Both the position numbers and the translations under genes were made by a program. A stretch of 64,000 nucleotides of DNA from Dethiosulfovibrio peptidovorans DSM 11002 (GTDB taxonomy: Bacteria; Synergistota; Synergistia; Synergistales; Dethiosulfovibrionaceae), in NCBI RefSeq assembly GCF_000172975.1, contig NZ_ABTR02000001.1, positions 906,501 to 970,500 of the forward strand, read 5' to 3'. The first letter of the stretch is position 1. Each line of letters opens with the position of its first letter. This document shows positions 577 to 16,872 of this stretch, piece by piece. Under the pieces are notes generated by a model that was not told where the DNA came from, searched no databases, and saw nothing but the letters and a program-made list of their open reading frames with translations.

Positions 577-1572
577 TTACTCGAGCCTTTTTATACCGAA
601 ATCGCTCGGAGAAAACTTCGCCCCTCCAGCATCGTAAAGAAGCCAAGCGCTGACGGATTTATTCTGCTCTATGTACCTTTCGGCCTCTTCTCCCGTAAGT
701 CCCAACTTCACACCTCCCATATTCTTCGCCAACTCGTCGAAACGAGGATCCTCGTACGCTTTTTCAAAAGCATCACGCAAAATTTTGACTCTGTCTTCCG
801 GCGTACCTTTTCTGACGAAAGCGCCAAAAAAAGCACCCCATGGAAGATAGTTCCTATAATCATCGTAGAATTCGGTAACGGCAGGAACAGACTCCACGCT
901 GGGAAGTCTCTTGGAGGAGATAACGGCCAAACCTTTCAAAGACCCTGACTTGATAAAGCTCTCTCCTGCGAGCAAGCCGACCACGACCGCATCTATGTGC
1001 CCTCCCATCAAAGCCGTTATACAGGGACCCTCCCCATCGAAACGAACTTTATTGAACGATTTTATCCCATGAATTTTCTCTATCATGGTGTTCGCAACGA
1101 AAGGCAATCCTCCAGGACCGGTAGAGCCCATCTTTATGCTCTTGCCGGAGAGGGCGGCATCTATGAAGTCCTCATAGCTCTGATATGGGGACTCCTGTCC
1201 CACCAGGACCACCCCGACATTTGCCATCATCAATAAAACGGGATCGAACTGATCGTAATCTATTTTCGACAATCCCGTCACCTTATAAAGATTGGGGTTT
1301 TCCGCTCCATAAAGGATACTGTATCCGTCGGCACGTTGATTAGCGACAAACGTAGTCGCCACGGCTCCGGTAGCTCCAGTACGATTTTGAAGAATGATCT
1401 TTTTATTCAGGTATTCCTCCGCTATGGGGGAAATAGCGCGGGCTACGTTGTCCATAGCGCCCCCGGCACCCCACATTATGTAGCCATGGAGGTTCTTTTC
1501 CGGGTAGGCGGACAAACCGACCCGAGCGTTCACGACCAAAAACAAAAACGCTAAGAAAATCCTTTTCTTCAT
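577..1572 (-). CDS. TctC-family tripartite tricarboxylate transporter substrate-binding protein (last gene of operon)
   Basis: A 331-residue secreted solute-binding protein of the TTT (TctC/Bug) family. It has a signal peptide of about 21 residues (MKKRIFLAFLFLVV...GLSA), then the family opening YPEK..HGYIMWGAGGAMDN, the ILQNRTGATGAVATT region, and MGSTGPGGLPF in the ligand site. These proteins bind small carboxylates in the periplasm and hand them to a TctA/TctB permease. No tctA or tctB lies beside it, while a complete tctCBA set sits earlier in the same operon (7726-10846). It may share that permease with a different ligand specificity. The start is fixed by CGGAGGAGG seven bases upstream. 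A perfect stem-loop separates it from dctP. The gene is more AT-rich than several operon neighbours. Confidence 0.85.
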   Translation of the reverse strand: MKKRIFLAFLFLVVNARVGLSAYPEKNLHGYIMWGAGGAMDNVARAISPIAEEYLNKKIILQNRTGATGAVATTFVANQRADGYSILYGAENPNLYKVTGLSKIDYDQFDPVLLMMANVGVVLVGQESPYQSYEDFIDAALSGKSIKMGSTGPGGLPFVANTMIEKIHGIKSFNKVRFDGEGPCITALMGGHIDAVVVGLLAGESFIKSGSLKGLAVISSKRLPSVESVPAVTEFYDDYRNYLPWGAFFGAFVRKGTPEDRVKILRDAFEKAYEDPRFDELAKNMGGVKLGLTGEEAERYIEQNKSVSAWLLYDAGGAKFSPSDFGIKRLE

Positions 1573-1646: not shown

Positions 1647-1658
1647 ATTAAATCATTT

Positions 1659-2681
1659 TTATTTTTTAGCTGACTCGCTAGCCTTAATTATGGAGTCGAC
1701 AACACCGTCTCCCACGTTCTTACGGATCATGTTCTCGACCGTAGCGGCTGCCTTCTTCAGCTCCGCCTTGAGCTCGGCGTTCGGGGTCTCGACGTTCATG
1801 CCAACCTTCTCGAGAGAGGCCAGCATCTCGTCGTTCTTGGACTTGGCCAGGTCGAAGAGAAAGTCGGAGGCCTCTTTCATGCTCTCGTCGATGATGGCCT
1901 TGTAGTCGTCGGGCATGCCGTCGTAAATATCCTTGTTCATCGTGATGCTGAGAATGAACGCTATATGATTGGTGTTCGTAAGATATTTCTGCACTTCGTA
2001 GAACTTGCTGGCCCATATCACCTCATAGGGATTTTCCTGAGCGTCCACCAATCTCTGCTGAAGAGCCACGTAAAGCTCGGCGAAGTTGAGAGGGGTGGGA
2101 TTGGCCCCGAGAGCCTTCCAGAAGGCCATGTGATACTCGTTTTCCATGGTCCGTATCTTGAGTCCCTTGAAATCGTCTATTTTTTTCAGCGCCTTGCTGC
2201 TGGTGGTCTCTCTGTAATAGATGGGTTCGAACAGGAGCAGTTTGAGTCCGGCCTTCTCGTACCATTCATCCAACTCGGCCCTGAAGGGACCGGTGAAGGT
2301 CTTTCTGGCCACGTCCAGATCGTCGAACAACATGGGGATATCGAAGACGGCCAGCTCGGGAATGAAGGCAACCTGGGGTGCGGTGGTCTGGGAAACCATG
2401 GAGATATCGCCGAATTGACAGCCTTCCAGGATTTCTCTGTCTCCACCAAGCTGATTGTCCAGATAGATATTAACGGTGATATTGCCTCCGGACTTGGCCT
2501 CGATCAGCTCTTTTATCTTCTCAGTAGCCAAAGCCCTAGGAGTTCCCCCGGTGGAAGGATAGGCTCCTGCCAATTGAAGGGTATATTTTTTCGCCGCCAT
2601 GCTCTCGTCGACAAATCCGAAAAAAAACGTAAGAACCGCAACCAAACCCAGGAACACGAAACCGCGTTTACCGTTGATCAT
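1659..2681 (-). CDS. dctP: TRAP transporter solute-binding protein, DctP family
   Basis: A 340-residue extracytoplasmic receptor of a tripartite ATP-independent periplasmic transporter. An N-terminal signal peptide ends near SMAA. The mature part shows the DctP fold: GGTPRALATEKIKELIEAKSGG, LGGDREILEGCQFG, and the signature LKIRTMENEYH...LGANPTPLNFAELYVALQQ. The arginine of KIRTMEN is the usual carboxylate-clamping residue, so an organic acid ligand is likely. The start ATG follows AAAGGAGGGG. The gene lies 3' of the dctM and dctQ permease genes in one minus-strand run. A 131-bp spacer upstream with a tandem 10-bp repeat may hold an extra promoter. Confidence 0.92.
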   Translation of the reverse strand: MINGKRGFVFLGLVAVLTFFFGFVDESMAAKKYTLQLAGAYPSTGGTPRALATEKIKELIEAKSGGNITVNIYLDNQLGGDREILEGCQFGDISMVSQTTAPQVAFIPELAVFDIPMLFDDLDVARKTFTGPFRAELDEWYEKAGLKLLLFEPIYYRETTSSKALKKIDDFKGLKIRTMENEYHMAFWKALGANPTPLNFAELYVALQQRLVDAQENPYEVIWASKFYEVQKYLTNTNHIAFILSITMNKDIYDGMPDDYKAIIDESMKEASDFLFDLAKSKNDEMLASLEKVGMNVETPNAELKAELKKAAATVENMIRKNVGDGVVDSIIKASESAKK

Positions 2682-2739
2682 TTATTGCCCCTCCTTTGTT
2701 TTCGTCGATCATGAAAATATGCCCATAAACCTTCAGAAC

Positions 2740-2759
2740 AAAACGATACAAAACGATAC
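2740..2759. repeat. Tandem 10-bp direct repeat upstream of dctP
   Basis: AAAACGATAC occurs twice back to back (2740-2749, 2750-2759) in the 131-bp gap between dctM and dctP. A one-helical-turn spacing suits a regulator binding on one DNA face. A related string, CAAAACGA, occurs in the iclR control region near 16053. Function is inferred only. Confidence 0.35.
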
Positions 2760-2812
2760 TCTAAAAAGACTTCTTCTCCCACCTCCAAACTATTTCAGCC
2801 TTGCGGCAACCA

Positions 2813-4105
2813 TTATCCGAGCAGGATGAGGCTGAGCTGAGGAATGTAGGTTATCAACATAAGGGCGACTATGAAGGCCAGTATGAACGGTATGGCCTTT
2901 ATTCCGACCTTCATGACCTGCTCTTTTATCAGAGGAGCGGCCACAAAGAGATCAACCCCGAAGGGGGGCGTCGCCATACCTATAGCCAAGGTAACCACCA
3001 TGATGATGCCCAGATGTATCGGACTGACTCCCAGAGCGACAGCGGAGGTAAGCATCATGGGAGCCAGTATGGCTATGGCCGGTCCGACATCCATAAACAT
3101 ACCCAGGATTAGTAATATTACGTTGAGTGCGAAAAGGAATATGTACTTATTTCCGGCGAAGTTTGTAAGCACGAAGTCCCTCAGCACCACAGGAGCCTGC
3201 AACAAGGCCAGTACGCGACCAAAGACTATCGCCAGAGAAAGAAGGACCACTATAGGAGCGTAGGACTTGACGGTATCGGTCAATATATCTCCGAGAGAGC
3301 CAAAAGTCAGACTTCTGTATATGAAGATGCAAACGATAAGGGCATAGAACACCGAGACAGCAGCCGCTTCCGTCGGGGTGACGATGCCTCCGTAGATACC
3401 TCCAAGTATGATCACCGGAGCCAGAAGAGCCCAAAAGCTCTCCTTGAAAAGCACCCATAGACCGCACGATCTGAGGCTCCTGACCTTAAGGGATATTTTT
3501 TCCCTGTCCTCGCCGTGGATCTTAGCGTAGATGTAAGCATATACCATAAGGCTTAATCCTATTAAAATACCCGGGATTATCCCGGCGATGAATAGACTGC
3601 CGATGGACACCCCGGTAACGACACCGTAGGTGACAAAGGGGATACTTGGAGGAATTATGACTCCCAGGCTACCGGCTGTCGCTATGAGAGCGGCACTGTA
3701 GACCTTGTCGTATCCCAGGGAAGTCAGAAACGGGATGGCCATTCCCCCTACAGCCGCAGTAGTCGCAACGCCGGAACCCGAGATGGCCCCGTAGAAAAGA
3801 CAGGTGACGATGGCGGTCATGGGAATCCCCGCCGGGAAATCCCCTATGAAATATGCGAAGAAGTTGAACAGTCTCTCGGAGATTTTTCCTTTGGTCATTA
3901 TATTTCCGGAGAGTATGAAAAGTGGAATGGCAAGCATGGGAGTGCTGTCGAGGGCGCTGACCACGCTGCGAACTACGTACTGTACGTTGGCGGTGAAGGC
4001 CGAGTCCAGCAGGGAGGGAAGAATGGTGGAGAAGCCGAGGGCCACCGCTATGGGTATCCCCAGGATAAGGCCCCCTAGAAGGATGAGAATCATGGATAAA
4101 ATCAT
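2813..4105 (-). CDS. dctM: TRAP transporter large permease, DctM family
   Basis: A 430-residue, highly hydrophobic protein with about twelve membrane segments. It carries the DctM hallmarks: MLAIPLFILSGNIM near residues 55-70, GAISGSGVATTAAVG near 110, and GVITPTEAAAV-like IVTPTEAAAVSVFYAL near 245. It is the ion-coupled transport subunit that moves substrate delivered by DctP. Start and stop are almost contiguous with dctQ (4108), showing translational coupling. Together with dctQ and dctP it forms a complete TRAP system. Confidence 0.93.
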   Translation of the reverse strand: MILSMILILLGGLILGIPIAVALGFSTILPSLLDSAFTANVQYVVRSVVSALDSTPMLAIPLFILSGNIMTKGKISERLFNFFAYFIGDFPAGIPMTAIVTCLFYGAISGSGVATTAAVGGMAIPFLTSLGYDKVYSAALIATAGSLGVIIPPSIPFVTYGVVTGVSIGSLFIAGIIPGILIGLSLMVYAYIYAKIHGEDREKISLKVRSLRSCGLWVLFKESFWALLAPVIILGGIYGGIVTPTEAAAVSVFYALIVCIFIYRSLTFGSLGDILTDTVKSYAPIVVLLSLAIVFGRVLALLQAPVVLRDFVLTNFAGNKYIFLFALNVILLILGMFMDVGPAIAILAPMMLTSAVALGVSPIHLGIIMVVTLAIGMATPPFGVDLFVAAPLIKEQVMKVGIKAIPFILAFIVALMLITYIPQLSLILLG

Positions 4106-4107
4106 GT

Positions 4108-4596
4108 CTAAAGCTCCGCCTTTCCGCTCGAATCCTTAAAATCGGCTCTGAGACGCTGAACCGCTCTGAAGGTGGCGAGGAAAAAACCCAAGATGGCGGC
4201 CAGATAGATCCATCCCATGTGGACCTTGAGAGCCGGGCTGGTCTGACTGCTCCTCATCACCCTCTGGACCGCCGGCACGGCAGATATGGACAGGTAGCCG
4301 AAGAAAGCCACCACGGTCAGATTTCCCAGATTGGTCATCAGGTTTCTGAGAGGTCTGGGAAGGGCCTCTATCAGGGTATCGACTCTCAGTATGTTTCTCT
4401 CTTTGATGCTGTAACCGATGCTTATCAGGGCGGACCATATGAAGGCGTAACGAGAGGCCTCCTCAGCCCAGGAAAGCGAATTATTGAACACGTATCTCAT
4501 GATCACCTGTAGCATCATGACACCGGCGATCACAACCAGGAGCCCGCTCAAAACGTACTCCTCCAGGTGATCGTTAAGCCATCGGATTATCTTCAC
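4108..4596 (-). CDS. dctQ: TRAP transporter small permease, DctQ family
   Basis: A 162-residue membrane protein with four predicted helices. The family signature FNNSLSWAEEASRYAFIWSA lies near residues 36-55, followed by KERNILRVD. DctQ docks on DctM in the inner membrane and is needed for DctP-dependent uptake. The start is GTG, placed by GGAGGTGA upstream. It precedes dctM with almost no gap. A 95-bp spacer separates it from the Gfo/Idh/MocA gene. Confidence 0.92.
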   Translation of the reverse strand: MKIIRWLNDHLEEYVLSGLLVVIAGVMMLQVIMRYVFNNSLSWAEEASRYAFIWSALISIGYSIKERNILRVDTLIEALPRPLRNLMTNLGNLTVVAFFGYLSISAVPAVQRVMRSSQTSPALKVHMGWIYLAAILGFFLATFRAVQRLRADFKDSSGKAEL

Positions 4597-4691
4597 CTAC
4601 ATCACCTCCGCTGGGGAATCGATCGACGATAGTGACGATCGTCCCGGAAAAGACGCTTCGCCAAAATGACCGCCGCCAAATCACGCTATCT

Positions 4692-5864
4692 TCAGAGTTG
4701 CACAGACTTTCCCTCTTCATCGGAAAGATAGGCTCCATAGATCACTTCCGTTACTTGTTTGGCCAAATCGAAGTCGGAGAGAGGTTTTCTTCCAGTTGAC
4801 ACACATTCCATAAAATCCTGGAATTGACCGACATAACCTCTCAGGATACCTTCCGCTACAAATGGATTCTGCCAACCAACTTTGGAAGGCAACAGTTCGG
4901 ATATATAGACATCCTCAAGTCCATCTTCGTCCAACATGTAGCTCGCGAGGTTATTAGAAGGGGTTATCTTGCAATCCAAAACCGCATCGTTAGAGTAAAC
5001 TTCGATGTAATTTTTGGTTCCACCAAGCATGACATCCCCTGCAATAATCAGAGCCTTTGTACCGTCGGTAAATGTAATTATCAACGATGCGAAGTCTTCG
5101 ACGTCTTCCGGCCTCACGTCGATGTGTCTGTGTTCATAGTCGCTAAGAGAGGGGGTCATCCTAGCAGTATCGCATATTACGCTTTTAACGCCTATCTTTT
5201 CGCCCCTAGCCTGGGCTTGCTCTCGCTTAAGCCATAAGATACCTCCAATAGGGTGACAACCGACACGAATCAGAGATCCTCCACCTGTTTTGTTCCATAA
5301 ACCAGCAACCGGCGACGTCGATCCCTTTAGGCTCTCCTCTCCCTTCATAAACAGTATCTTGCTTTTCTTCGCACGTATTATCTCGGCAGCTTTCAACACA
5401 TTCGGAGAATAGATATAGTTCTCGGCATACATGAAGAGGTTATTGCTAGACTTAACCGTTTCCTCGATTTCTGCAAGTTCCTTTCGAACTTCCCGAAACA
5501 TCACGGATTTGGGTACGGTATCACCTACGGAGGAAACGGCTCCTTCTTTTCCGAAATAGCCGGTTAGAGGTTTTTCGCATATTACGTGCTTCCCCGCTCT
5601 CAATATCTCCGAAACCATGGAAGAGTGCAAAAAAGGAGGCGTACATATATGAACGACATCTATCTCCTTGTCATCCAAAATTCGTCTGTAATCGTCATAG
5701 TAGCTTCGGAAACCATATGTATCAGCGACCTTCCGAGCTTTTTCAATGTCGATATCGGCTATAGCTCTCATATCGATAGAACATCCAGCCACCTGAGCCA
5801 CATACTTACAGTGAAGATGAGATGCAAACCCGCTCCCTATTATCCCGATAGATATCTTCTTCAT
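4692..5864 (-). CDS. Gfo/Idh/MocA-family NAD(P)-dependent oxidoreductase
   Basis: A 390-residue cytoplasmic dehydrogenase. The N-terminal Rossmann fold opens with GIIGSGFASHLHCKY, and the family motif HVICEKPLTGYFGKEG holds the catalytic-region lysine. About 30 extra residues follow EKP. AENYIYSP and GGSLIRVGCHPIGGILWL mark the C-terminal substrate domain. Family members oxidise or reduce hydroxyl groups on sugars, cyclitols and related polyols (for example inositol dehydrogenase IolG). In this operon a likely role is oxidation of a ring hydroxyl; that is inference. Its base composition is visibly more AT-rich than the HMG-lyase and aroE genes beside it. Confidence 0.85.
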   Translation of the reverse strand: MKKISIGIIGSGFASHLHCKYVAQVAGCSIDMRAIADIDIEKARKVADTYGFRSYYDDYRRILDDKEIDVVHICTPPFLHSSMVSEILRAGKHVICEKPLTGYFGKEGAVSSVGDTVPKSVMFREVRKELAEIEETVKSSNNLFMYAENYIYSPNVLKAAEIIRAKKSKILFMKGEESLKGSTSPVAGLWNKTGGGSLIRVGCHPIGGILWLKREQAQARGEKIGVKSVICDTARMTPSLSDYEHRHIDVRPEDVEDFASLIITFTDGTKALIIAGDVMLGGTKNYIEVYSNDAVLDCKITPSNNLASYMLDEDGLEDVYISELLPSKVGWQNPFVAEGILRGYVGQFQDFMECVSTGRKPLSDFDLAKQVTEVIYGAYLSDEEGKSVQL

Positions 5865-5888
5865 AAAATCACCCCAAATTATCTATCT

Positions 5889-6794
5889 CTAAAAACCAGA
5901 GACCCTAAGCATGGAGCTGTCTCCGGGATGACCGACGTATTCCTCCACCTTCCGTGCCACGGTCAACACCTTATCCAGATCGAAACCGGTGCGGACACCC
6001 ATGGTCTCCAGCATATTGACCACGTCCTCGGTGGCGACGTTTCCGGAGGCTCCCGGGGCAAAGGGACAGCCCCCCAGACCGGCGAAGGATGCGTCGAAAT
6101 GGGACACACCTGCGGTCATCGCAGCGTAGATGTTGGCCAGCGCCATACCCCTGGTGTTGTGGGGATGGAGCGTCCAGGTAACGTCGGGATAACGGCGGAT
6201 CAGGTCGGTCATGTATTCGTAGACCTGGCCGGGATGGGCCATTCCGGTGGTGTCGGACATGGATATCTCCCTTATCCCCAGGTCCAGATAGGCGTCCACT
6301 ATGGGGTATATCTCCTCCAGAGGTATGATCCCCTCGTCGGTGTATCCGAAGGCGGTGGAGATGGCTCCGCTGAGCTCCCTCCCTCTGTCGGAACAGAAGG
6401 CGGCGCATTTTCCGAAACCGGTTATGACCTCTTCCGGCGTGGCGTTGCTGTTTTGCCTCGAGTGGGTTCGACTGGCCGAGACGCTCACCTTGACCTTGGT
6501 AACCCCGGCCTCGCAGGCCCTCTCGACTCCCTTGAAGTTGAGGGCCAGACCTCTGTACTCGACTCCGTCGATCTTCCTGAGCCTTTTGACTACCTCGTCG
6601 GTATCGGCCATGGAGGGAACCGCCTTGGGATGGACGAAGGACCCGACCTCGATGCTCTTGGCCCCGGCGTCGATTATTCCCTCTATCAGGGCCAGCTTGT
6701 TCTCCACGGACAGAAGGGTGCTCTCGTTCTGAAGTCCGTCCCTGGGGCCTACCTCGCAGATGACGACCTCGCGGGGAAGAGATGGAGAGGACAT
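5889..6794 (-). CDS. HMG-CoA-lyase-like 3-hydroxyacyl-CoA lyase
   Basis: A 301-residue TIM-barrel lyase of the HMGL-like family (hydroxymethylglutaryl-CoA lyase type). Visible motifs are EVGPRDGLQNE at the barrel start, SDTTGMAHP, the metal-binding HPHNTRGMALAN, and GLGGCPFAPGASGNVATEDVV, which contains the catalytic cysteine loop. Such enzymes split a tertiary-alcohol acyl-CoA into acetyl-CoA and a keto acid. Next to a CoA-acylating-type aldehyde dehydrogenase it could cleave a ring-opened, CoA-activated intermediate; that is inference. It starts two bases after aroE ends, so the two are coupled. Leucine catabolism is an alternative, but no leucine-pathway genes are nearby. Confidence 0.85.
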   Translation of the reverse strand: MSSPSLPREVVICEVGPRDGLQNESTLLSVENKLALIEGIIDAGAKSIEVGSFVHPKAVPSMADTDEVVKRLRKIDGVEYRGLALNFKGVERACEAGVTKVKVSVSASRTHSRQNSNATPEEVITGFGKCAAFCSDRGRELSGAISTAFGYTDEGIIPLEEIYPIVDAYLDLGIREISMSDTTGMAHPGQVYEYMTDLIRRYPDVTWTLHPHNTRGMALANIYAAMTAGVSHFDASFAGLGGCPFAPGASGNVATEDVVNMLETMGVRTGFDLDKVLTVARKVEEYVGHPGDSSMLRVSGF

Positions 6795-6796
6795 GG

Positions 6797-7687
6797 CTAT
6801 CCCTCTTTTCTGGTCAGATGCTCCAACATGGTCTTGGTCATGATCTCCACGTCGGGCTCCTTTCCACCGGTCCAGCGGCGGAAGGCCTCCGCGCCCTGCC
6901 AGATGGTCATCCAGTATCCCATCAGGGTCCTGGCTCCTTTGGCCTCGGCTTCACGGAGCATCTTTGTATCGTGAGGAACGTAGACGAGATCGCACACCAT
7001 GTGACGGCTTTCCAGATAGGAGGTGTCGAAGACCGTGGCGTCGGTGTTGGGGGCCATCCCGACGGAAGTTCCGTTTATGACCAGCTCGTTTTCCTTGAGA
7101 AGGTTCGGTATATCCCCCGCCTCGGTGGACTGCACCTTACAGACCCCGACCCGATAGGAGTTCAGGTCGCTGGCCAGCTTCTGAATTTTCTCGTATCCCG
7201 ACGCTCTTCCCCAAAGGGTTATGGAGCTGATCCCGGCAGCGCAAAGGGCGAAGGCAACTCCTCTAGCGGCTCCTCCGGCTCCGAAGAGAAGGCAGTGTTT
7301 GCCGGTGGGATCGTATCTTCCCTGTTCCTTCAGCCCGTGGACGAATCCGACTCCGTCGGTGTTGGATCCACATAGCTTGCCGTCCTTCCAATAGACGGTG
7401 TTGACGGCGTTACAGAGAGAGGCGATCTCGTCCAGCTCGTCAAGGTATTTTATTATCTCCTGCTTGAGAGGCATGGTGACGTTGAGCCCCTTGAAACGCA
7501 TGGCTCCCAGCGCCGGAACAACCTTTGGAAGTTCCTCCGCGGTCACCTCGTAGGGGGTGTACACTGCGTTCATTCCCAGGGATTTGAAGTTGGAATTGTG
7601 CATGGCCGGAGAAAGCGATTTTCTTACCGGGCTACCCAGAAGGCCGAAGAACTCCGTGTCGGCCCAGAAAGTCTTTTCTTTAAGCAT
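6797..7687 (-). CDS. aroE: Shikimate (or quinate/shikimate) dehydrogenase
   Basis: A 296-residue enzyme interconverting 3-dehydroshikimate and shikimate. The substrate pocket motif SLSPAMHN is near residue 25, the catalytic lysine is in NVTMPLK, the aspartate in NTDGVGF, and the C-terminal WQGAEAFRRWTGG is present. The nucleotide fold reads GAGGAARGVAFAL. The usual NADP-specific NRT after strand two is replaced by LWGRASG, so cofactor choice is uncertain. Its place in a transport/catabolism operon with a type I dehydratase, rather than with other chorismate genes, suggests a catabolic role on shikimate or quinate. Confidence 0.88.
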   Translation of the reverse strand: MLKEKTFWADTEFFGLLGSPVRKSLSPAMHNSNFKSLGMNAVYTPYEVTAEELPKVVPALGAMRFKGLNVTMPLKQEIIKYLDELDEIASLCNAVNTVYWKDGKLCGSNTDGVGFVHGLKEQGRYDPTGKHCLLFGAGGAARGVAFALCAAGISSITLWGRASGYEKIQKLASDLNSYRVGVCKVQSTEAGDIPNLLKENELVINGTSVGMAPNTDATVFDTSYLESRHMVCDLVYVPHDTKMLREAEAKGARTLMGYWMTIWQGAEAFRRWTGGKEPDVEIMTKTMLEHLTRKEG

Positions 7688-7725
7688 GATAGCAACACCC
7701 TTCTTTAGTTATATTTTATACAAAA

Positions 7726-9249
7726 TCAATCTAACAACGACACCTCTTGAGCCGACATCGTTTTCTTACAACGCCAATTTCTCCACCAAGAAGTCTGGGA
7801 TATCACCAGGTAGACGATACAAAGGGTGAGAAATAGAGAGAGAGGATTTCTGACGAAATCCATGAAAAAAGGAAGGAGTTCTTCTCCCACGGATTGCATC
7901 GCCCTTCTGTAATTCGAGTCCAGCAAAGGGCCTAGAATTATCCCCAGCACCATAGGCGCCGTACTGTAATCGTAGGCTCTCATGAAATATCCCAAAACAC
8001 CGAAACCTATCATCCAAAAAACGTCAACCAGACTGTTCTGTATGGAATAGGTCCCTATTATCGACAGGATAACCACCACCGGTAGAATTATCCTTTTGGG
8101 TACCTCTATGATTTTGCTGAACATCTTGACGCTCATAAGTCCTATTACGAGTAGAGCTATGTTTCCCATCAAGAGCAGCGATATTATCGTCCAAAATATG
8201 TCCGGATTTTCTATCATGAGCATCGGTCCAGGCTTCAAACCGTGAATGAAAAGAGCTCCTATTATGATGGCGGTGACGGCATCACCGGGTATTCCCAAGG
8301 TCAACATAGGAATGAAAGCCCCGCCGATAGCCCCCTTGTTCGCCGATTCAGGGGCGATTACCCCCTCTATAGCTCCTTCTCCAAAAGGACATTCAGGATT
8401 TTTAACCGATCGCTTGGCCTGATCGTAGGCAAGCAACGCTGCCACGTCCCCACCCGTTCCCGGAAGAGCCCCTATCCAGACCCCTAACAGACCGGATCTT
8501 AGAGCAAGAGGAAGGTGTTTAAAGAAAGTCTTGAGATCAGGGACAATTTTATCGAGCCTCTGCTTTACCGCCGTCTTATGAGGGTCTCTCAGCTGAAACA
8601 AGACCTCCGAAACTCCGAAAAGGCCTATCATGGCCGTGACGAAATTGATACCTGCCATCAGGTAAACGTTGCCAAACGTATATCTCAGTTCGCCGGTAGA
8701 GGGATCCATCCCTACCATACTGAGAAGAACCCCAACTGCCCCGGCCAGAACCCCTTTGACCGGATCACCGCTGCCGATGCTTCCGATAAGAAGAAGCCCC
8801 ATTAGAGCCAACAGGAAGTAGTCTCTGGGAGCCACTTTCAAGGCGAAGCTTGCTACCAAGGGGGCTGCCACCGCAAGAATGGCGATACCCAAAAGGCCTC
8901 CGAATATAGACACCGTGGTCACCAATCCGATAGTTCGGCCCGCCTCGCCCTTCTTGGCCAGAGGGTGTCCGTCGAAGCCTGCCGCTATCGCCGCTGGTGC
9001 CCCGGGAATATTTAGGAGAATAGACGTAATGGCTCCTCCGTAGACACCGCCGACGAAAACTCCGCATATCAACGCCAATGCGCTGTTAAGCTGCCAGGGG
9101 AAGGTAAAGGAAATCAGAAGGGCGCTGGCCATTGTGACGGACAGACCGGGGACAGCCCCGACCCACACTCCCGCCATCACGCCTATCCAGACCAGGGCTA
9201 TCATCTGCGGATTCAGAAAAGGCGCTATAAAACCGTGCAGTTGTTCCAT
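7726..9249 (-). CDS. tctA: Tripartite tricarboxylate transporter large permease, TctA family
   Basis: A 507-residue membrane protein with about a dozen helices. TctA hallmarks are GAVPGLSVTMASALLI near residue 32, GGVYGGAITSILLNIPGAP near 67, AAIAAGFDGHPLAKKGEAGR, and GALPGTGGDVAALLAYDQAKR near 260. It forms the transport channel for a carboxylate bound by TctC. The order tctC-tctB-tctA on the minus strand is the usual one. A good ribosome site (GAAGGAGAG) precedes the ATG. Confidence 0.93.
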   Translation of the reverse strand: MEQLHGFIAPFLNPQMIALVWIGVMAGVWVGAVPGLSVTMASALLISFTFPWQLNSALALICGVFVGGVYGGAITSILLNIPGAPAAIAAGFDGHPLAKKGEAGRTIGLVTTVSIFGGLLGIAILAVAAPLVASFALKVAPRDYFLLALMGLLLIGSIGSGDPVKGVLAGAVGVLLSMVGMDPSTGELRYTFGNVYLMAGINFVTAMIGLFGVSEVLFQLRDPHKTAVKQRLDKIVPDLKTFFKHLPLALRSGLLGVWIGALPGTGGDVAALLAYDQAKRSVKNPECPFGEGAIEGVIAPESANKGAIGGAFIPMLTLGIPGDAVTAIIIGALFIHGLKPGPMLMIENPDIFWTIISLLLMGNIALLVIGLMSVKMFSKIIEVPKRIILPVVVILSIIGTYSIQNSLVDVFWMIGFGVLGYFMRAYDYSTAPMVLGIILGPLLDSNYRRAMQSVGEELLPFFMDFVRNPLSLFLTLCIVYLVISQTSWWRNWRCKKTMSAQEVSLLD

Positions 9250-9298
9250 TTGTTTCTCTCCTTCTCTAAGTCAGTTAAACGACGACAGGTCGAGGCCG

Positions 9299-9763
9299 CT
9301 AAGGCAACATAACCTGAAAAACATACTTGAACACTCCTACCAGAACGACCACGGTCCCCAACGATATAGCGGAGCAAAGACCTATCTTTTTCCAATGGTG
9401 CAGATACAGTAGGGAAAGAAAAAGAAACAGAAATGATGCCAGTGGGAAATGCAATATCGGAAGAAAAAACGAATAAAGAGCCAACAACACAAGAACGAAA
9501 AGTATCTCCCGGGTGAACAGGAAGGAGAAGAGATTACCAGCATTCACACCCTTCCCCTGTTTTCTAGATCCCTTCCAAAGTTCGATGGTCCCCATCAGCA
9601 TTATCACCGAGGAAGCTATCTTGGGAGCTACCGAAGGAGAAGAATACTTACCGCTGGTCATATCCAAGGCGAAATAGAATCCGAGAGCCCCGAAAAGGAT
9701 AAACAAAAAGGCGAAACCTATCTCTCCGGGTCTTCTTTCGTTTGAATTGGACTGTTCCTGCAT
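9299..9763 (-). CDS. tctB: Tripartite tricarboxylate transporter small permease, TctB family
   Basis: A 154-residue protein with four hydrophobic segments, consistent with TctB. They are IGFAFLFILFGALGFYFAL near residues 16-34, a second near 45-60, and two close to the C-terminus. It is poorly conserved, so the call relies on length, topology and position between tctC and tctA. The start follows GGAAAGGAG. Confidence 0.8.
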   Translation of the reverse strand: MQEQSNSNERRPGEIGFAFLFILFGALGFYFALDMTSGKYSSPSVAPKIASSVIMLMGTIELWKGSRKQGKGVNAGNLFSFLFTREILFVLVLLALYSFFLPILHFPLASFLFLFLSLLYLHHWKKIGLCSAISLGTVVVLVGVFKYVFQVMLP

Positions 9764-9787
9764 GGAATTTAAAAACTCCTTTCCGAT

Positions 9788-9820
9788 GTAGCTGTCCCCT
9801 CGAAAAAAGGAGACAGCTAC
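9788..9820 (-). promoter_or_regulatory. Intercistronic stem-loop between tctC and tctB
   Basis: GTAGCTGTCCCC (9788-9799) pairs with GGAGACAGCTAC (9809-9820) with one mismatch. It lies between the binding-protein gene and its permease genes. There is no U-tract on the minus-strand transcript. It probably stabilises the 3' end of tctC mRNA and lowers permease expression relative to the binding protein. Confidence 0.55.
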
Positions 9821-9838
9821 GCTACATAATCGATTAAA

Positions 9839-10846
9839 TTATGGCTTCGGTATACCCAGTTCGGCGGGAGACACCTTTGTAACTCCGGCCTCCTCCAAAA
9901 GCCAGGTAACGTTAGACTGATTTTTTTTGAGGAATTTATCCGCTTCCTCGCCGGAAAGGGCAAGTTGGATCCCGTTAAGCCTCTTGATGAACTCTACGAA
10001 TGCAGGATCTTTAACAGCCTTCATATAAGCCGCTTTCAACTCGTCCACTATGGGCTGAGGGGTTCCCTTTTTGACGAAAGCGCCGTAGAAGTGACCTATC
10101 GGCAGATATTTGGAGAACTCGGGATAGATCTCGGTTATAGCAGGGACATCCGGTAACTGCTCTACCCTCTCGTCGTTTATGACCGCAAGAGCACGAAGCT
10201 TTCCGGTCTTTATAAGATCCACCGTGCCCGCTCCCATCATGCTGATAGGCATGGCCTCGACGTGACCGCCGAGCAACGCCGCCATTCCGGAACCGTCGCC
10301 GTCGAATCCGACCAGGTTGAACTCGACGTCCTTCATAGCTCTAAGCATGGAGGCTATGACGAATGGAATCCCGCCGGTACCGGTGGAAGCCATCTTTATC
10401 TTTCCCTCGTTTTCCTTGGCCGCTTCGATAAGATCCTGAAGGGTCTGATACGGAGTATTGGGGTTGACGCATATGACATCCACACCGAAGACCATAAGAC
10501 AGAGGGTATCGAAGTCGTTGTAATCGTATTTGCCCAATCCCAATACCTTGTAAAGCGCCGGACCTTCCGCATTGTAGAGAATGGAATAGCCATCCGCCGG
10601 CATATTGGCCACCAGGGTCGTAGCCAAAGCTCCGGCCGCCCCCGGTTTGTTCTGAAGTATGATCTTTCCACCTATGATCTTCTCCACTAGAGGCGTCAGA
10701 GCTCTGGAAGCGTTGTCCGTACCTCCACCGGCACCCCAAGAGATATATCCGTTGATGTTCTTATCCGGGTAATCGGCAAAAGCTGGTGCAACCAAGAACA
10801 CCCCAAGGCTGCAAAAAACCGTCATAAGCGCAAGCAAACGTCTCAT
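9839..10846 (-). CDS. tctC: TctC-family tripartite tricarboxylate transporter substrate-binding protein
   Basis: A secreted binding protein (335 residues from the chosen start) that pairs with the TctB and TctA downstream. The signal peptide is MRRLLALMTVFC...APAFA. The mature protein opens YPDKNINGYISWGAGGGTDN and has ILQNKPGAAGALATT and MASTGTGGIPF, as in the paralogue at 577-1572. The ATG at 10846 is preferred over an in-frame ATG nine codons upstream, because CGGAGG sits nine bases before it and it restores a standard signal peptide. Ligand presumably a carboxylate. Confidence 0.9.
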   Translation of the reverse strand: MRRLLALMTVFCSLGVFLVAPAFADYPDKNINGYISWGAGGGTDNASRALTPLVEKIIGGKIILQNKPGAAGALATTLVANMPADGYSILYNAEGPALYKVLGLGKYDYNDFDTLCLMVFGVDVICVNPNTPYQTLQDLIEAAKENEGKIKMASTGTGGIPFVIASMLRAMKDVEFNLVGFDGDGSGMAALLGGHVEAMPISMMGAGTVDLIKTGKLRALAVINDERVEQLPDVPAITEIYPEFSKYLPIGHFYGAFVKKGTPQPIVDELKAAYMKAVKDPAFVEFIKRLNGIQLALSGEEADKFLKKNQSNVTWLLEEAGVTKVSPAELGIPKP

Positions 10847-10945
10847 GATTAATGTCCTCCGATTCATTTTCATATTCTCTTACTGAAAAGGATACGCATA
10901 ATGCTATCAACAGGAAAAAGTTACGTCTTACCTCACTTTGCCGTT

Positions 10946-12367
10946 TTACTGCGGTTTCTTTTTCGAGGGATCGAAGAACTCCCCGAAGAGTATCGCTTCG
11001 TCGGGCTGGTCCTTCATTATGGGACGAGCCACCCAGGTACTCTGCATATAGTGCTTCAGTGAGATGTTTTCCGACACCATGTTGCCGCCCCATACGCCGC
11101 ATCCCATACTGGAGGTCATGGGCATGCCGTTCTCGGCACTGCCGGCGTTGGCCTTGGACTGAGGCTGACGGACCATTATGCGGGTGACGGGAGCCCTCAG
11201 GGCAAGACGGTCGATATGGTCGTCGTCGTGGCTGTAGATCCCGCAGGAATGGCCTCTGCCTCCGACCTTGTAGATCTCGTCCATCATCTTCAGGGCGTTC
11301 TCGAACTCGCCTTCGTAACGATGCAATGTCAGCAGGGTGGTAAGCTTCTCTCCGGAGAACTTATGCTCCTTGCCGATTCCGTCGCCGACGACCATTATGA
11401 ACTTGCGGTCCTCCGGGATCTCGAAACCGGCGGCCTTGGCCAGCTTCTGAGGAGCCACGGCGACGGTCGCTACTATGCGGTGGCCTTCCTCGTCCCACAT
11501 GGCCTTCTTCAGCATCTCCCTCTGCTCGTCGGTGGCCAGATAGCCCCCTTCTTTCTTCAGGGCCTCTACCATGGCGTCGTATATCCCGCCGTAGATAACC
11601 AGGTTCCCGTCGGCGGAACATCCGGAGCCGAAATCGGATGTCTTGCTGATCCTGGTGTTCCTGGCGGCTATCTCGACGTCGGTTGTCTCGTCGAAGATCA
11701 TGGTGGCGTTTCCGGCGCCGGAACAGTAGGCTGGCTTGCCCGAGCTGTGGGCAGCCTTGGTCATGGCGGGGCCTCCCGTAGCCATTATAAGATCCCCCAT
11801 GGTCATGATCTTGTTCACCATGGCCATGTTGGGAGACTCGACGCACTGGAGGAAGTCCTCCGGCTCGCCTATGGCCTTGAGGGCCTCTCTCATCAGACGG
11901 ACGACCTCGAAGGTGGTTTTCTTGGTTCTGGGATGGGGCGAGAATATGACCACATCTCTGGCCTTGAGAGCGTAGATTGCGGTAACGATAGGGGTGAGCT
12001 CCGGATTCGTCATGGGGATGAGGGACACTATCAATCCCGCCGGTTTAGCGTAGCGGGCCAGTCCCTTCTCGGGGTTGAACTCCACCATTCCAACGCTCTT
12101 CTGTCTCAGAGCGTCCCTTAGAACTCCTAGGATCTTGTGTCTCTTGCCGTAACGTCCGTTCCAGTCTCCCGCTCCGCTCTCCTCGACTCCCATCTTGCCG
12201 AGTCTGTCGAAGTTCTCCGGATTTCCCGCTGCCCAGGCGACGGCGCGGCACATGCGGTCGACCCTCTCCTGATCGTAGTTCTCTATAATTCCCTGGACCC
12301 GGCGGGCCTTCTCTACAAGTTTCTCCAGCACCTCGAGCTGTTCCGGAGTTATCTCTTTACTAGCCAT
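10946..12367 (-). CDS. Aldehyde dehydrogenase, CoA-acylating type (EutE/AdhE/SauS-like)
   Basis: A 473-residue cytoplasmic dehydrogenase. The stretch AHSSGKPAYCSGAGNATM followed by ISKTSDFGSGCSADGN aligns by eye with the catalytic region of the acylating aldehyde dehydrogenases (AdhE N-domain, EutE, sulfoacetaldehyde dehydrogenase). Its catalytic cysteine falls in GSGC. VSLIPMTNPELTPIV forms the cofactor-site region. Family members turn an aldehyde, NAD(P)+ and CoA into an acyl-CoA. In this operon it can plausibly accept an aldehyde released by the TPP enzyme. Sulfoacetaldehyde dehydrogenase is an alternative, but no sulfonate genes are present. The ribosome site AAGGAGAG precedes the ATG. 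Confidence 0.82.
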   Translation of the reverse strand: MASKEITPEQLEVLEKLVEKARRVQGIIENYDQERVDRMCRAVAWAAGNPENFDRLGKMGVEESGAGDWNGRYGKRHKILGVLRDALRQKSVGMVEFNPEKGLARYAKPAGLIVSLIPMTNPELTPIVTAIYALKARDVVIFSPHPRTKKTTFEVVRLMREALKAIGEPEDFLQCVESPNMAMVNKIMTMGDLIMATGGPAMTKAAHSSGKPAYCSGAGNATMIFDETTDVEIAARNTRISKTSDFGSGCSADGNLVIYGGIYDAMVEALKKEGGYLATDEQREMLKKAMWDEEGHRIVATVAVAPQKLAKAAGFEIPEDRKFIMVVGDGIGKEHKFSGEKLTTLLTLHRYEGEFENALKMMDEIYKVGGRGHSCGIYSHDDDHIDRLALRAPVTRIMVRQPQSKANAGSAENGMPMTSSMGCGVWGGNMVSENISLKHYMQSTWVARPIMKDQPDEAILFGEFFDPSKKKPQ

Positions 12368-12401
12368 AACAAATCTCTCCTTGCAATAGTAAATTTTTAA
12401 T

Positions 12402-13229
12402 CTATAAAATTCCGTTTTCGACCATGTAGTCCTTGGCAGTAGACAGACAGCGCTTGGCGTGTTCCATCGATCCCCAGCTTCCCTCTCTCTTAAGATGGGG
12501 TAGCTCTATGGACAGGACCACGTCGTCCGGAAGACGGCGGACTATGTCGGCTATGTCGATGGCACCTTCGCCCACGTAGTAGCGTTCATCCCTTCCGGTG
12601 TGTATCAGGCTTTCCTTGTCGTCCCAGTCGGGGATCTCCGCCGGGCCGTCGCAGATATGGGCCATGTGGAATAGCTCCTTAGGGCAGTCGTCCAGCTCCG
12701 CCGGGTCCACCCTGGACCTGTACAGATGAAGGGTGTCTACCATGATCCCGGCGTTGTCCCTCTTGACCGTGTCTAGGACCTCTCTGGTCTCCTTAAGGGT
12801 GCGGATCGACGCCCAGGTGACGAACTCCAAATTCACCGTGATGCCGTATTGCTTGGCCAGATCGCACAGAGTGGCGAACTGATCCAGATAGAAGTCTTTT
12901 TTGTCGGTCCATATGCTGCTTATGACGTTCTTTACTCCCAGCTCCGCCGCGGCCTCGAAGGGGCCCTCGTAGTTTCGGACGTCAACTCCGTCGGCTATCT
13001 TGGCCAGCTCGATATCGTTTATGACCACCCCGGTCTCGTCCATAGCCCTGCGGGTCAGGTCGAACATCTCCCTGTTTCTGTAGATGTCGTAGTCGTTCTC
13101 GCCCTTGACCCCCATGGTTATGGACCTTATCCCGACGCAGTCGTAACCCAGGGTGTGGGCGTTGTAGATCATCTCGGGTGGAGCCCATCCGAGAACGGTA
13201 AGCTGAGCCAGAGAATACCTGTGTGCCAT
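12402..13229 (-). CDS. Xylose-isomerase-like TIM-barrel protein (sugar isomerase/epimerase/dehydratase family)
   Basis: A 275-residue AP-endonuclease-2-type TIM barrel. The expected metal ligands occur in order: Glu in VNLEFVTW, Asp/His in IMVDTLHLYRS, His in FHMAHICDGP, and Glu in VLSIELPHL. The family covers sugar isomerases, the inosose dehydratase IolE and fungal/bacterial 3-dehydroshikimate dehydratases. With AroD and AroE in the same operon, a step on dehydroshikimate or a related cyclic keto acid is attractive, but the exact reaction cannot be read from sequence. GAGGAGG lies upstream of the ATG. Confidence 0.78.
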   Translation of the reverse strand: MAHRYSLAQLTVLGWAPPEMIYNAHTLGYDCVGIRSITMGVKGENDYDIYRNREMFDLTRRAMDETGVVINDIELAKIADGVDVRNYEGPFEAAAELGVKNVISSIWTDKKDFYLDQFATLCDLAKQYGITVNLEFVTWASIRTLKETREVLDTVKRDNAGIMVDTLHLYRSRVDPAELDDCPKELFHMAHICDGPAEIPDWDDKESLIHTGRDERYYVGEGAIDIADIVRRLPDDVVLSIELPHLKREGSWGSMEHAKRCLSTAKDYMVENGIL

Positions 13230-13249
13230 CTTCTTTTTTGCCTCCTCGA

Positions 13250-14026
13250 CTAACGGTAAAGTAGATCGAAGGCCCCGCGCATCCGCTCCACCGGGATCTG
13301 TCCCGGGGCGGACTCGGCGCTTCCGACCGCGAATGTGAGGTCCGATCCGTAAAGCCCTCCAGCCAGACGGCTGACCTGTCCCAGAGCTCCCATGGACATG
13401 GTTATCAGGGGAACGTCGGGGAAGTCCCTGCGAACAGCCAGGGTGGCCTCGAACACCTTCAGAACGTCCTCCTCCGATCTCGGCATCAGTGCCACCTTGG
13501 CGACGTCGGCGCCGAAACGGATCTGGGTAGCCAACTGAGAGTAGATGAAGGAGAGAGAGGGGGTCCGGTCGAAGTCGTGATAGGAGACTATAAGTCCTAT
13601 TCCCGCCTTCTCCGCCAGGGCCTTGACCTCCGAGAGCTTCTCGTAGCCGTAGGTGAGTTCCTTGTCCACCAGCTCGACCAGCCTCTCCGAGATCGCCCCT
13701 CTGTATATGCTGTCCTTGGCCGACTCGGACACCTCCTTGATACCGCCCTCCCAGTGTCCGCGACAGGTGAGGATGATGGGAAGATCTCCCACGGCGGAGC
13801 GTACCTTGCGAAGTAGGTCCATCGACGAGTCAAGATCCTCGACCACGTCCCAGGCGTCTATTCGCAGCTCTATGATGTCCGGGTTTATGGAGGAAAGGTT
13901 CTCCACCTCCGCCATGACGTCCTCCCCGGTCGAGCCGACCAGGGGGACGCATACCAGGGGAACCTCTCCGCCCAACAGGGCGTTTCGGACCTTCAAGGGC
14001 TTTCCGGGAAGAGGACGGACCATCAT
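13250..14026 (-). CDS. aroD: 3-dehydroquinate dehydratase, type I
   Basis: A 258-residue class I aldolase-fold enzyme that interconverts 3-dehydroquinate and 3-dehydroshikimate through a Schiff base. The catalytic pair is visible: histidine in IVSYHDFDRTP and lysine in VAKVALMPRSEEDV. ELRIDAWD and ILTCRGHWEGG match the other strands. The ATG at 14026 overlaps the TGA of the upstream TPP gene (ATGA), which is why it is chosen over an upstream in-frame ATG inside that gene. Location in a catabolic operon fits use in quinate/shikimate breakdown or interconversion. Confidence 0.92.
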   Translation of the reverse strand: MMVRPLPGKPLKVRNALLGGEVPLVCVPLVGSTGEDVMAEVENLSSINPDIIELRIDAWDVVEDLDSSMDLLRKVRSAVGDLPIILTCRGHWEGGIKEVSESAKDSIYRGAISERLVELVDKELTYGYEKLSEVKALAEKAGIGLIVSYHDFDRTPSLSFIYSQLATQIRFGADVAKVALMPRSEEDVLKVFEATLAVRRDFPDVPLITMSMGALGQVSRLAGGLYGSDLTFAVGSAESAPGQIPVERMRGAFDLLYR

Positions 14027-15798
14027 TCCCACACCCTTCCGGGTTTGCTGCCGCCTCTCTTGACGTAGATATCGTTTATATTCCAACATCCGGCTGTGAC
14101 CACCGGGGCGTTCTCCATGCTGACGTCAATGAGATAGGGCTTGTTGGATGCCAGGGCCCTCTCCAGGGCGGGCTTGAAGTCCTCGGCAGACTCGACCTTC
14201 TCGCCCTCTACGCCGTAGGCTCTGGCTATGGCGGCGAAGTCGGGAGAGTAGGGCTCGCCTTCTCTGGTGAAAAGGGTTCCGAACTGGTGCTCGTAGTGCT
14301 GATATTCCAGTCCAGCTATGGTTCCGAAGGCGCAGTTGTTCATGACCACCCATACCACGGCTATGTTCTTCTCCGCAGCTGTGGCCAGAGGCGAAACGTT
14401 GGTCCCCATTCCTCCGTCGCCGATGAGAGCGACCACCTTCTTGTCCGGACAGGCCACCTTGACCCCCAAAGCGGCGGAGGGACCGTATCCCATGGTGCAT
14501 AGCCCGCCGGGAGCCACGAAGGTTCCCGCCTCGTATATGGGGAACTGCTGGCCGACTCCGTTTTTGTTCCAGCCGACGTCGGCTACCACATAGCCGTCTT
14601 TGGGAAGGGCCTCACGAAGGTCTGCCAGGATTCTCTCCGGCCTCATGGGGAACTGTCCGGAGGTCTGAGCCTCCATCAGAGACGCCCGGTAGGCGTTCTT
14701 GGACTCGGAGATCGACTCGGCCAGTCCCGGTCTCTTCACTCCATCGGGATATATCCTCCTGGCTGCGTCGAGAATGGCTTCGAGGGCCTTCTTGGCGTCG
14801 CAGATGGCGCCTATCTCGGTCTTGTAGTTGCGTCCGATCTCTTCCTGGTTTATATCTATGTGGACGAGTTTCGTCGGAGGGATGTTGAATGTCTCGTCTC
14901 TGTACCAGGAGCTGCAATCGGCCTCGGAAAGGCGGGTACCGACCGCCATCATGACGTCGGCCTTCATCGCCATGGAGTTGTTGAACTCGGTTCCCCAGAA
15001 GCCGGTCATACCTACCGCCATGGGGTGATCGTCCGAGATGGATCCCTTGCCCATAAGGGTGTAGAGTACGGGAACGGTAAGATGCTCCGCCAGCTCGGTT
15101 AGGGCCCTTGAGGCCCCGCTGGATATTACCCCTCCGCCGGGGTAGAGTATGGGGTTCTTGGCTTCGCCCAACATGCGGGCTATCCTCTCGGCGTCGGAGA
15201 CGTCCATCCCCGGCTTGGGCAGCTCGGGCATGTTGTCGTAGCGACGCTGGAAGAACTTAACGTCCAGCTCCATGGAGAAGATATCCATAGGTATCGACAC
15301 CAGCACCGGACCGGGACGGCCTGTGACGGCAAGGCGGAAGGCCTTGTCCATTATCTCCGGCAGGAGCTCGGGGCGGTCGACCCTCCAGGCCCTCTTGACG
15401 AAGGGCTTGTATATTTCGAACTGGGTCGCGTCGCCGTGCATATTCACTTCCTGATGGGGATGACGACCGTAGTAGCTGCTGGGGACGTCTCCCGCTATGA
15501 CGACCATGGGAATGGAGTTCAGCCCGGCCTCGGCCACCCCGGTGGTGGCGTTGGTCAGTCCAGGCCCGAGATGGGTCATGAGGACTCCCGGAACTCCCTT
15601 ATTCTTGCCCCTGGAGTAACCGTCGGCGGCGTGGGCCGCTATCTGCTCGTGCCGAACCGAGATGTACTCGATCCGCTCGCTCTCCCTGAAAGCGTCCAGG
15701 AGACCTATGACCGTGTGGCCGCACAGGCCGAAGACCTTCTCCACCCCTCGGGACTCAAGAAAACGAACTAATTGAAAAGCTACCAAATCTCTGTTCAA
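14023..15798 (-). CDS. Thiamine-diphosphate-dependent enzyme, acetolactate synthase (IlvB) superfamily
   Basis: From the TTG at 15798 the protein is 591 residues, typical for the family. That codon lies eight bases after AGGAGG, while the frame upstream has no comparable site. The N-domain has GLCGHTVIGLLDAF and ISVRHEQIAAHAADGYSR, with the cofactor-activating glutamate. The C-domain carries GDGGMGTNVSPL..NN, the TPP/Mg motif. Relatives include acetolactate synthase, IolD (trihydroxycyclohexanedione hydrolase), cyclohexane-1,2-dione hydrolase and sulfoacetaldehyde acetyltransferase. No regulatory IlvN subunit follows, so acetolactate synthesis is unlikely. It is first in the operon. Ring cleavage of a cyclic 1,2-dione is my preferred hypothesis. 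Confidence 0.82.
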   Translation of the reverse strand: MNRDLVAFQLVRFLESRGVEKVFGLCGHTVIGLLDAFRESERIEYISVRHEQIAAHAADGYSRGKNKGVPGVLMTHLGPGLTNATTGVAEAGLNSIPMVVIAGDVPSSYYGRHPHQEVNMHGDATQFEIYKPFVKRAWRVDRPELLPEIMDKAFRLAVTGRPGPVLVSIPMDIFSMELDVKFFQRRYDNMPELPKPGMDVSDAERIARMLGEAKNPILYPGGGVISSGASRALTELAEHLTVPVLYTLMGKGSISDDHPMAVGMTGFWGTEFNNSMAMKADVMMAVGTRLSEADCSSWYRDETFNIPPTKLVHIDINQEEIGRNYKTEIGAICDAKKALEAILDAARRIYPDGVKRPGLAESISESKNAYRASLMEAQTSGQFPMRPERILADLREALPKDGYVVADVGWNKNGVGQQFPIYEAGTFVAPGGLCTMGYGPSAALGVKVACPDKKVVALIGDGGMGTNVSPLATAAEKNIAVVWVVMNNCAFGTIAGLEYQHYEHQFGTLFTREGEPYSPDFAAIARAYGVEGEKVESAEDFKPALERALASNKPYLIDVSMENAPVVTAGCWNINDIYVKRGGSKPGRVWE

Positions 15799-15948: not shown

Positions 15949-15977
15949 AACATACATCAGTCTTTTCTCCATGTCAA
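15949..15977 (-). promoter_or_regulatory. Sigma-70-type promoter of the 14-gene operon
   Basis: On the minus strand TTGACA (15972-15977) is followed after exactly 17 bases by TATGTT (15949-15954). Transcription would start near 15942, giving a leader of about 145 nt before the TTG start at 15798. It lies in the 312-bp divergent gap shared with the IclR gene (15799-16110); apart from this promoter nothing else is clear there. IclR operators commonly lie in such gaps, but I could not define one. Confidence 0.7.
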
Positions 15978-16110
15978 GGAATTCGCGCACTTTTTCAAAA
16001 GCTATCCGCTTGATCTTTCCGAAATCGACGTTTAGGATCGTAACGTTCCGGACAAAACGAGGCTAAGCACAGGAAAGAGCGGGATAAAGGTCATATGGGA
16101 GGGGTTTATC

Positions 16111-16872
16111 ATAAAAGAAGGCAACGAAAAATCCGTAAGGGTTCTGGACAGGGCGATATCCATTCTGGACTGCTTCACCCTTGACGACACCCATTTAACG
16201 TTAAAGGAACTCTCGGAGAGGGTCGATCTCTCCACCAGCACCGTCTCCAGATTGCTCAATTCACTGGTCGCCCTTAAACTTCTCCATAGGAACGACAGGG
16301 ATAAGTCCTACTGCCTGGGGCCGAAGCTCTACCATTACGGTTTTCTGGCCAAGGACAACATATCGGTGGTGAAACATGCCTACCCTCTGATGAAACGGAT
16401 AAGGGACAAGACCAAGGAGGCTGTTACCCTCTACGTCCTGGAAAACGACTACAGGGTATGTTACGAACACGTGGAAAGCCTGCTATTCATGTCATGCGTG
16501 GTTAGGGTCGGAGACCGCTTCCCCCTCTGGGCCGGTGCCGGAGGAAAGTGCATCCTGGCCTATTCGGACGAAACCTATGTTCTGAATGAGATAGAGAAGG
16601 CCTACCCCATAACGGGAGCGACCATAACGGACCGGGAATCGTTTCTGTCGGAGCTGGCGTCCATAAGGGAAAGGGGTTACGCTATAAGCCACGGAGAGAG
16701 AGAGGAAGGGGTCATCTCCGTGGCGGTTCCAATATTCGAGCCACCCCACAGGATATTCGGCTGCCTTTCCGTGGCGGCCCCAACAGTAAGGTTGGACGAG
16801 AAAGCCATAGAGGAGCTCATTCCGGAGCTCAAGGACATCTGCTCCAGGATATCCATGAACCTGGGCATATAG
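16111..16872 (+). CDS. IclR-family transcriptional regulator (non-canonical start)
   Basis: A DNA-binding regulator of about 253 residues. The N-terminal winged helix reads VLDRAISILDCF...LTLKELSERVDLSTSTVSRLLNS. The C-terminal effector domain has the family pattern from YHYGFLAKD to HGEREEGVISVAVPIF. It diverges from the operon and is its likely controller, sensing the substrate or an intermediate. No ATG, GTG or TTG occurs in frame between the upstream stop (16033) and the middle of the HTH at 16252. The Shine-Dalgarno TGGGAGGGG is eight bases before ATA at 16111 and five before ATC at 16108, so a rare AUA/AUC start is proposed. A CTG at 16144 is the other option. Confidence 0.78.
   Translation: MKEGNEKSVRVLDRAISILDCFTLDDTHLTLKELSERVDLSTSTVSRLLNSLVALKLLHRNDRDKSYCLGPKLYHYGFLAKDNISVVKHAYPLMKRIRDKTKEAVTLYVLENDYRVCYEHVESLLFMSCVVRVGDRFPLWAGAGGKCILAYSDETYVLNEIEKAYPITGATITDRESFLSELASIRERGYAISHGEREEGVISVAVPIFEPPHRIFGCLSVAAPTVRLDEKAIEELIPELKDICSRISMNLGI

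Follow-up and report, generated by a model that had tools for sequence, protein, structure and literature searches.

A conserved ThDP-dependent enzyme that may open the ring in an oxygen-independent route for quinate and shikimate

What does a ThDP-dependent enzyme do at the head of an operon that also encodes AroD and AroE? The question is raised by a locus of Dethiosulfovibrio peptidovorans DSM 11002, which lies in a 64,000-nucleotide stretch of contig NZ_ABTR02000001.1 (positions 906,501 to 970,500); we term this stretch the window and use its numbering throughout. On balance, and judging from sequence comparisons, we favor the answer that the protein is the ring-opening hydrolase of an oxygen-independent pathway for quinate and shikimate. 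Plants and the diet contain both compounds in large amounts, and quinate is present as the free acid and in the form of chlorogenic acid. According to the textbooks, bacteria degrade them via protocatechuate and an oxygen-dependent ring cleavage; fermentation of quinate and shikimate by anaerobic isolates was reported in the early 1990s. If our reading is correct, it would explain how anaerobes of the gut, the rumen, and sediments could use quinate or shikimate. It would also assign a role to a large ThDP family whose annotation goes no further than "thiamine pyrophosphate-binding protein." The pathway would have an unusual product split, to acetyl-CoA and 2-oxoglutarate. Among open-licence papers, we found nothing relevant on an anaerobic quinate route, on homocitryl-CoA together with quinate, or on this combination of genes, which is weak evidence of novelty.

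The ThDP gene and its operon

The ThDP gene (14023..15798, minus strand, 591 amino acids) heads a series of 14 genes that are all read from the minus strand; the series ends at 577, and no gap in it exceeds 131 bp. Its start is a TTG at 15798 with AGGAGG 8 nt upstream, and the orthologs begin at the same point; the longest reading frame opens further out, at 15915. The TPP_enzyme N, M, and C domains all score far over their Pfam cut-offs, the ThDP motifs are intact (Glu51, GDG at 460-462, and NN at 487-488), and we saw no IlvN/ACT gene among the genes of the operon. The initial annotation had described an operon-leading gene starting at 15798, with intact TPP motifs and no IlvN partner, and on all of these points it was right.

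Upstream of the operon is a promoter-like TTGACA-17-TATGTT (15949..15977, minus strand; a match to the consensus only), followed by a divergent gene for an IclR-family regulator (16072..16872, plus strand), whose frame is open and whose HTH is intact. This frame has no ATG, GTG, or TTG before 16252, so either its start is non-standard or there is a frameshift just upstream.

Behind the ThDP gene, and like it on the minus strand, is the gene for a type I 3-dehydroquinate dehydratase, AroD (13250..14026; TIGR01093, 191.9 bits against a cut-off of 139.3). It is followed by a TIM barrel of the AP_endonuc_2 family, which we call ISO (12402..13229), and by a SauS/AdhE-like acylating aldehyde dehydrogenase, ALD (10946..12367). 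Next come a TctC substrate-binding protein (9839..10873), a small TctB-like membrane protein (9299..9763), and TctA (7726..9249; PF01970, 481 bits). The TctB-like protein, whose gene is flanked by those of TctC and TctA, groups with ORFs that occupy the same position in other loci. AroE, of the quinate/shikimate dehydrogenase family (6797..7687), is followed by an HMG-CoA-lyase-like enzyme, HMGL (5889..6794), which was located by tblastn and from the full ORF list; this gene lies beyond the region covered by the initial annotation, yet it is informative. The remaining genes encode a Gfo/Idh/MocA oxidoreductase (4692..5864), which is possibly a second polyol dehydrogenase, the TRAP transporter proteins DctQ (4108..4596), DctM (2813..4105), and DctP, the solute-binding protein (1659..2681), and a second TctC binding protein (577..1572). 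Thus TctCBA, a TRAP transporter, and a spare TctC all occur in one operon (577-10873), where many other clusters have one transporter or the other.

Subfamily and active site of the ThDP enzyme

One scan identified 80 orthologs of the ThDP enzyme with 53-81% identity, and 27 aligned sequences have a mean column identity of 72%. These 27 orthologs form one branch (SH-aLRT 100) that lies outside both IlvB and IolD in a maximum-likelihood tree; the tree left out Xsc, cyclohexanedione hydrolase (CDH), and ComDE, and its branches are long enough that the deeper order is unsure. The ThDP enzyme is a real, widely conserved, uncharacterized family.

The highest-scoring NCBIfam model is acetolactate synthase (TIGR00118), but the score of 416.4 bits is below the cut-off of 538.35, and His28 replaces the Gly or Ala of IlvB and AlsS. 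Along with the branching outside IlvB and the missing IlvN/ACT gene, this argues against an acetolactate synthase, in agreement with the initial annotation, which had doubted any known subfamily and had suggested a phylogeny with IlvB and IolD among the references. The remaining NCBIfam models fall further short of their cut-offs. For sulfoacetaldehyde acetyltransferase (Xsc), which the initial annotation found unlike the protein at the N-terminus, the score is 293.1 bits against a cut-off of 620, and the position of Xsc E510 is taken by Ile494, as judged from an alignment with AHAS-type enzymes and from published equivalences. Other families were rejected as well: glyoxylate carboligase (Gcl; 325.9 against 791 bits, with Glu51 present where Gcl has Val), IolD (by the separate branch described above), and the ComDE sulfopyruvate decarboxylase, which consists of two half-length subunits, whereas the ThDP enzyme carries all three domains on one polypeptide.

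The active site points toward the hydrolases of cyclic 1,2-diones. His28, Glu51, His76, and Gln116 are kept in all of the aligned orthologs. His28 follows FGxxG, which is a feature of the CDH/IolD-type dione hydrolases, and it is shared with the three IolD sequences in the alignment; the same position is Gly, Ala, Val, or Ile in AHAS, AlsS, Gcl, Pox, Oxc, and guanidino-oxopentanoate decarboxylase. In CDH, His28 is functional, and an H28A/N484A variant acts as a carboligase (PMC12247030); CDH also has Q116 and N484 (PMC13327070). The N484 position is Ile494 in the ThDP family, but because IolD has Ile there too, Asn at this position does not define the dione hydrolases.

CDH was compared via structure scores and published residue numbers. 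In an AlphaFold2 model of the ThDP enzyme (pLDDT 86), CDH (PDB 2pgn, 4d5e) is the best Foldseek match by query-length-normalized TM (0.86), and His28 and Gln116 have equal numbers in the two proteins. As AHAS and Gcl match nearly as well as CDH, however, the fold alone does not decide the subfamily. The two enzymes also differ: they are only 26-28% identical, and the operon encodes a separate dehydrogenase that would take the aldehyde. The similarity to IolD includes both His28 and the Ile at 494, and it would extend to the chemistry, as in the IolE/IolD pair a TIM-barrel dehydratase yields a cyclic 1,2-dione that the ThDP enzyme hydrolyzes. In contrast, the identity to IolD is about 25-29%, the clade is separate, and the proposed substrate and downstream route are different. 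The ThDP enzyme probably works like IolD and CDH, and by the tests that we ran, it belongs to neither.

A related ThDP family (about 37% identity, at loci L130, L129, and L093) has the same GH motif. Its member on plasmid pHTUR01 of Haloterrigena turkmenica (L130, 6974-15015) adjoins a scyllo-inosose 3-dehydrogenase gene (iolM), a sugar isomerase gene, and two Gfo/Idh genes. These neighbors fit dione hydrolysis in inositol metabolism, and the relatives are probably hydrolases of other cyclitol diones. The initial annotation had proposed, from the neighboring ring-acid genes, that the window's enzyme is a hydrolase of cyclic 1,2-diones. His28 and the relatives beside scyllo-inosose dehydrogenase support this assignment by inference, and the gene context is real and points to quinate or shikimate as the ring acid. 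The Rhizobium member of the 37% group adjoins genes annotated as hisD and hisN.

Exchangeable neighbors and the proposed route

The 80 loci from the scan are distributed over Synergistota, Bacillota, Pseudomonadota, and MAGs of other phyla; Streptomyces and Nonomuraea add loci from Actinomycetota, and Azoarcus KH32C adds an annotated plasmid copy. Across 81 loci, including the window, ISO is present in 61, ALD in 58, AroE in 49, HMGL in 42, AroD in 27, a citryl-CoA-lyase-type (CS) lyase in 24, an ordinary aldehyde dehydrogenase (ALDH2) in 13, and a class III CoA-transferase (CaiB) in 12. Most of these copies belong to the same uninterrupted series of genes as the ThDP gene. The counts are beyond chance because HMGL-related genes, for instance, number only about four in the 2.6-Mb genome of the window.

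Two of the functions seem to be exchangeable. First, the 61 long loci comprise 32 with HMGL, 22 with the CS type, none with both, and 7 with neither (Fisher test, 7e-11; this is uncorrected for relatedness and overstates the independence of the loci, as a tree-based sign test of HMGL against CS had too few independent pairs). There were at least three switches between HMGL and CS on the tree. HMG-CoA lyase and citryl-CoA lyase, the families to which these two types belong, have unrelated folds, and both cleave R-C(OH)(R')-CH2-CO-SCoA; by sequence, the protein in the window looks like an ordinary HMG-CoA lyase. Second, ALDH2 is confined to CS-type loci, and so is CaiB, which nearly always accompanies ALDH2 (as in Streptomyces and Nonomuraea, with the gene order TPP-ALDH2-CaiB-CS-IclR), although several CS-type clusters have neither. 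This pattern suggests that ALDH2 and CaiB, by way of aldehyde to acid to acyl-CoA, stand in for a one-step acylating dehydrogenase. The alternation of the lyases and the replacement by ALDH2/CaiB together suggest that the product of the ThDP enzyme is an aldehyde and that it is converted to a CoA ester with a tertiary hydroxyl at C3.

As both lyase families need a tertiary alcohol at C3, and as C1 of quinate and 3-dehydroquinate is the only tertiary alcohol carbon on the quinate/shikimate route, we propose that this carbon becomes the site of the lyase. Quinate would be oxidized to 3-dehydroquinate by AroE or by another dehydrogenase of the cluster, and shikimate would be oxidized to 3-dehydroshikimate, which AroD, running in reverse, would hydrate to 3-dehydroquinate. 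ISO would then act as a 3-dehydroquinate dehydratase (removing the C4 hydrogen and the C5 hydroxyl) to give 1-hydroxy-3,4-dioxocyclohexane-1-carboxylate; as C1 keeps its hydroxyl, this would be a cyclic 1,2-dione and not an aromatic ring. The ThDP enzyme would add to the C3 carbonyl, water would attack C4, and the C3-C4 bond would break, yielding 2-hydroxy-2-(2-oxoethyl)glutarate (C7H10O6) with the aldehyde on C3. ALD (or, in other lineages, an aldehyde dehydrogenase and a class III CoA-transferase) would turn this into homocitryl-CoA. Finally, HMGL (or the CS-like lyase) would split (R)-homocitryl-CoA to acetyl-CoA and 2-oxoglutarate, which is the reverse of the condensation by homocitrate synthase. 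The scheme balances (C7 = C2 + C5). Also, 3-dehydroquinate is 1R, and the order of the substituents around C1 leaves this descriptor unchanged; reasoning from the standard names, the route would therefore pass through the (R)-homocitrate form that homocitrate synthase makes.

We infer every reaction and intermediate of this route from genes, families, conservation, and mutually exclusive alternatives that are observed. That it is a complete, widespread, and undescribed way to use quinate and shikimate without oxygen or aromatization, and that unrelated enzymes carry out two of the steps in different lineages, is a tentative proposal whose chances we put slightly short of even.

The role of ISO in this scheme resembles that of QuiC, which performs the same elimination on 3-dehydroshikimate. 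QuiC is the most frequent NCBIfam match of the ISO orthologs (20 of 28; the matches are weak, at best 7.6e-12), and it shares the fold of ISO: the nearest folds to the ISO model (pLDDT 95) are 2g0w, IolI, and QuiC 5hmq (Z of 30.4, 29.8, and 28.8). However, the window's ISO is far below the QuiC cut-off (23.2 bits against 1200), it has 275 amino acids and no HPPD domain, and its proposed product is a dione and not aromatic. In Azoarcus KH32C, a QuiC-type barrel (31% identical to QuiC) takes the place of ISO, and the Steroidobacter clusters have QuiC in addition to ISO. On the Azoarcus plasmid (pAZKH; L092, 7961-9664), QuiC occurs as adjoining HPPD-like and TIM-barrel genes next to the ThDP cluster.

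Alternative readings of the cluster

One alternative is that the enzyme hydrolyzes a dione from another cyclic polyol or hydroxy acid (inositol or a hydroaromatic other than quinate), and that AroD and AroE are merely resident biosynthetic genes. Both are single-copy in the genome, where aroA and aroC are located elsewhere and no further AroD, AroE, or AroQ was found. (AroQ is not a general substitute for AroD: few lineages, L019/L020 and L005/L014, have it among the contiguous genes around the ThDP gene, and elsewhere it looks biosynthetic.) Furthermore, two congeners without the cluster (L125 and L126) have an adjacent aroD-aroE pair at the same chromosomal site, with the same flanking genes, so the catabolic block was either built around this biosynthetic pair or lost from around it. 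With both genes single-copy in this genus, and with the pair kept in the cluster-free congeners, the window's AroD and AroE probably serve biosynthesis as well as the proposed catabolic route. The clusters of Terribacillus and Shouchella, which use Gfo/ADH and have no AroE or AroD, and the inositol-type setting of the 37% group would also suit a different substrate. Nevertheless, we consider this reading unlikely because AroE and AroD recur (at 49 and 27 of the 81 loci) in unrelated phyla, including genomes with a second AroE, which was found in 8 of 13 other genomes. Also, the substrate of the lyases has to be a tertiary hydroxy acid, and such an acid can come from quinate but not from inositols. 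In the window itself, aroD and aroE are separated by the catabolic gene block (6797-14026).

A second alternative retains 3-dehydroquinate as the substrate. The ThDP enzyme could be an acyloin (alpha-ketol) lyase that cuts its C3-C4 bond directly to give a dialdehyde, and ISO would isomerize the open-chain hydroxyaldehyde. Benzaldehyde lyase-type ThDP enzymes, which do such chemistry, are among the structural neighbors; TIM barrels with the fold of ISO are mostly isomerases and epimerases; and IolI is the closest match to ISO by sequence in the PDB. This seems rather improbable because it would leave a C4 hydroxyaldehyde, which would require more enzymes than the cluster offers. Moreover, the most frequent curated match of ISO is a dehydratase (QuiC), and His28 is common to two dione hydrolases.

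Third, the pair could be an AHAS- or Gcl-type carboligase beside a barrel like hydroxypyruvate isomerase, as AHAS and Gcl are the top database matches and gcl-hyi is a known pair of neighbors. But all of the AHAS and Gcl cut-offs were missed, there is no IlvN, the Glu51 that Gcl lacks is kept, the clade is separate, and such a role does not account for the lyase or for the genes that take an aldehyde to a CoA ester, so we consider a carboligase very unlikely.

Finally, a sulfonate pathway (Xsc/SauS-like) is suggested by the top NCBIfam match of ALD, which is SauS, but it can be set aside as highly improbable because that score (423.1 bits) is below the cut-off of 600, as is the Xsc score of the ThDP enzyme relative to its own cut-off, and because the operon has no sulfonate genes.

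Far from the operon, the window also contains two adjacent frames of 248 and 541 amino acids (60158-62722, plus strand) that look HsdM-like by eye and have similar beginnings, as if one of them were a truncated duplicate.
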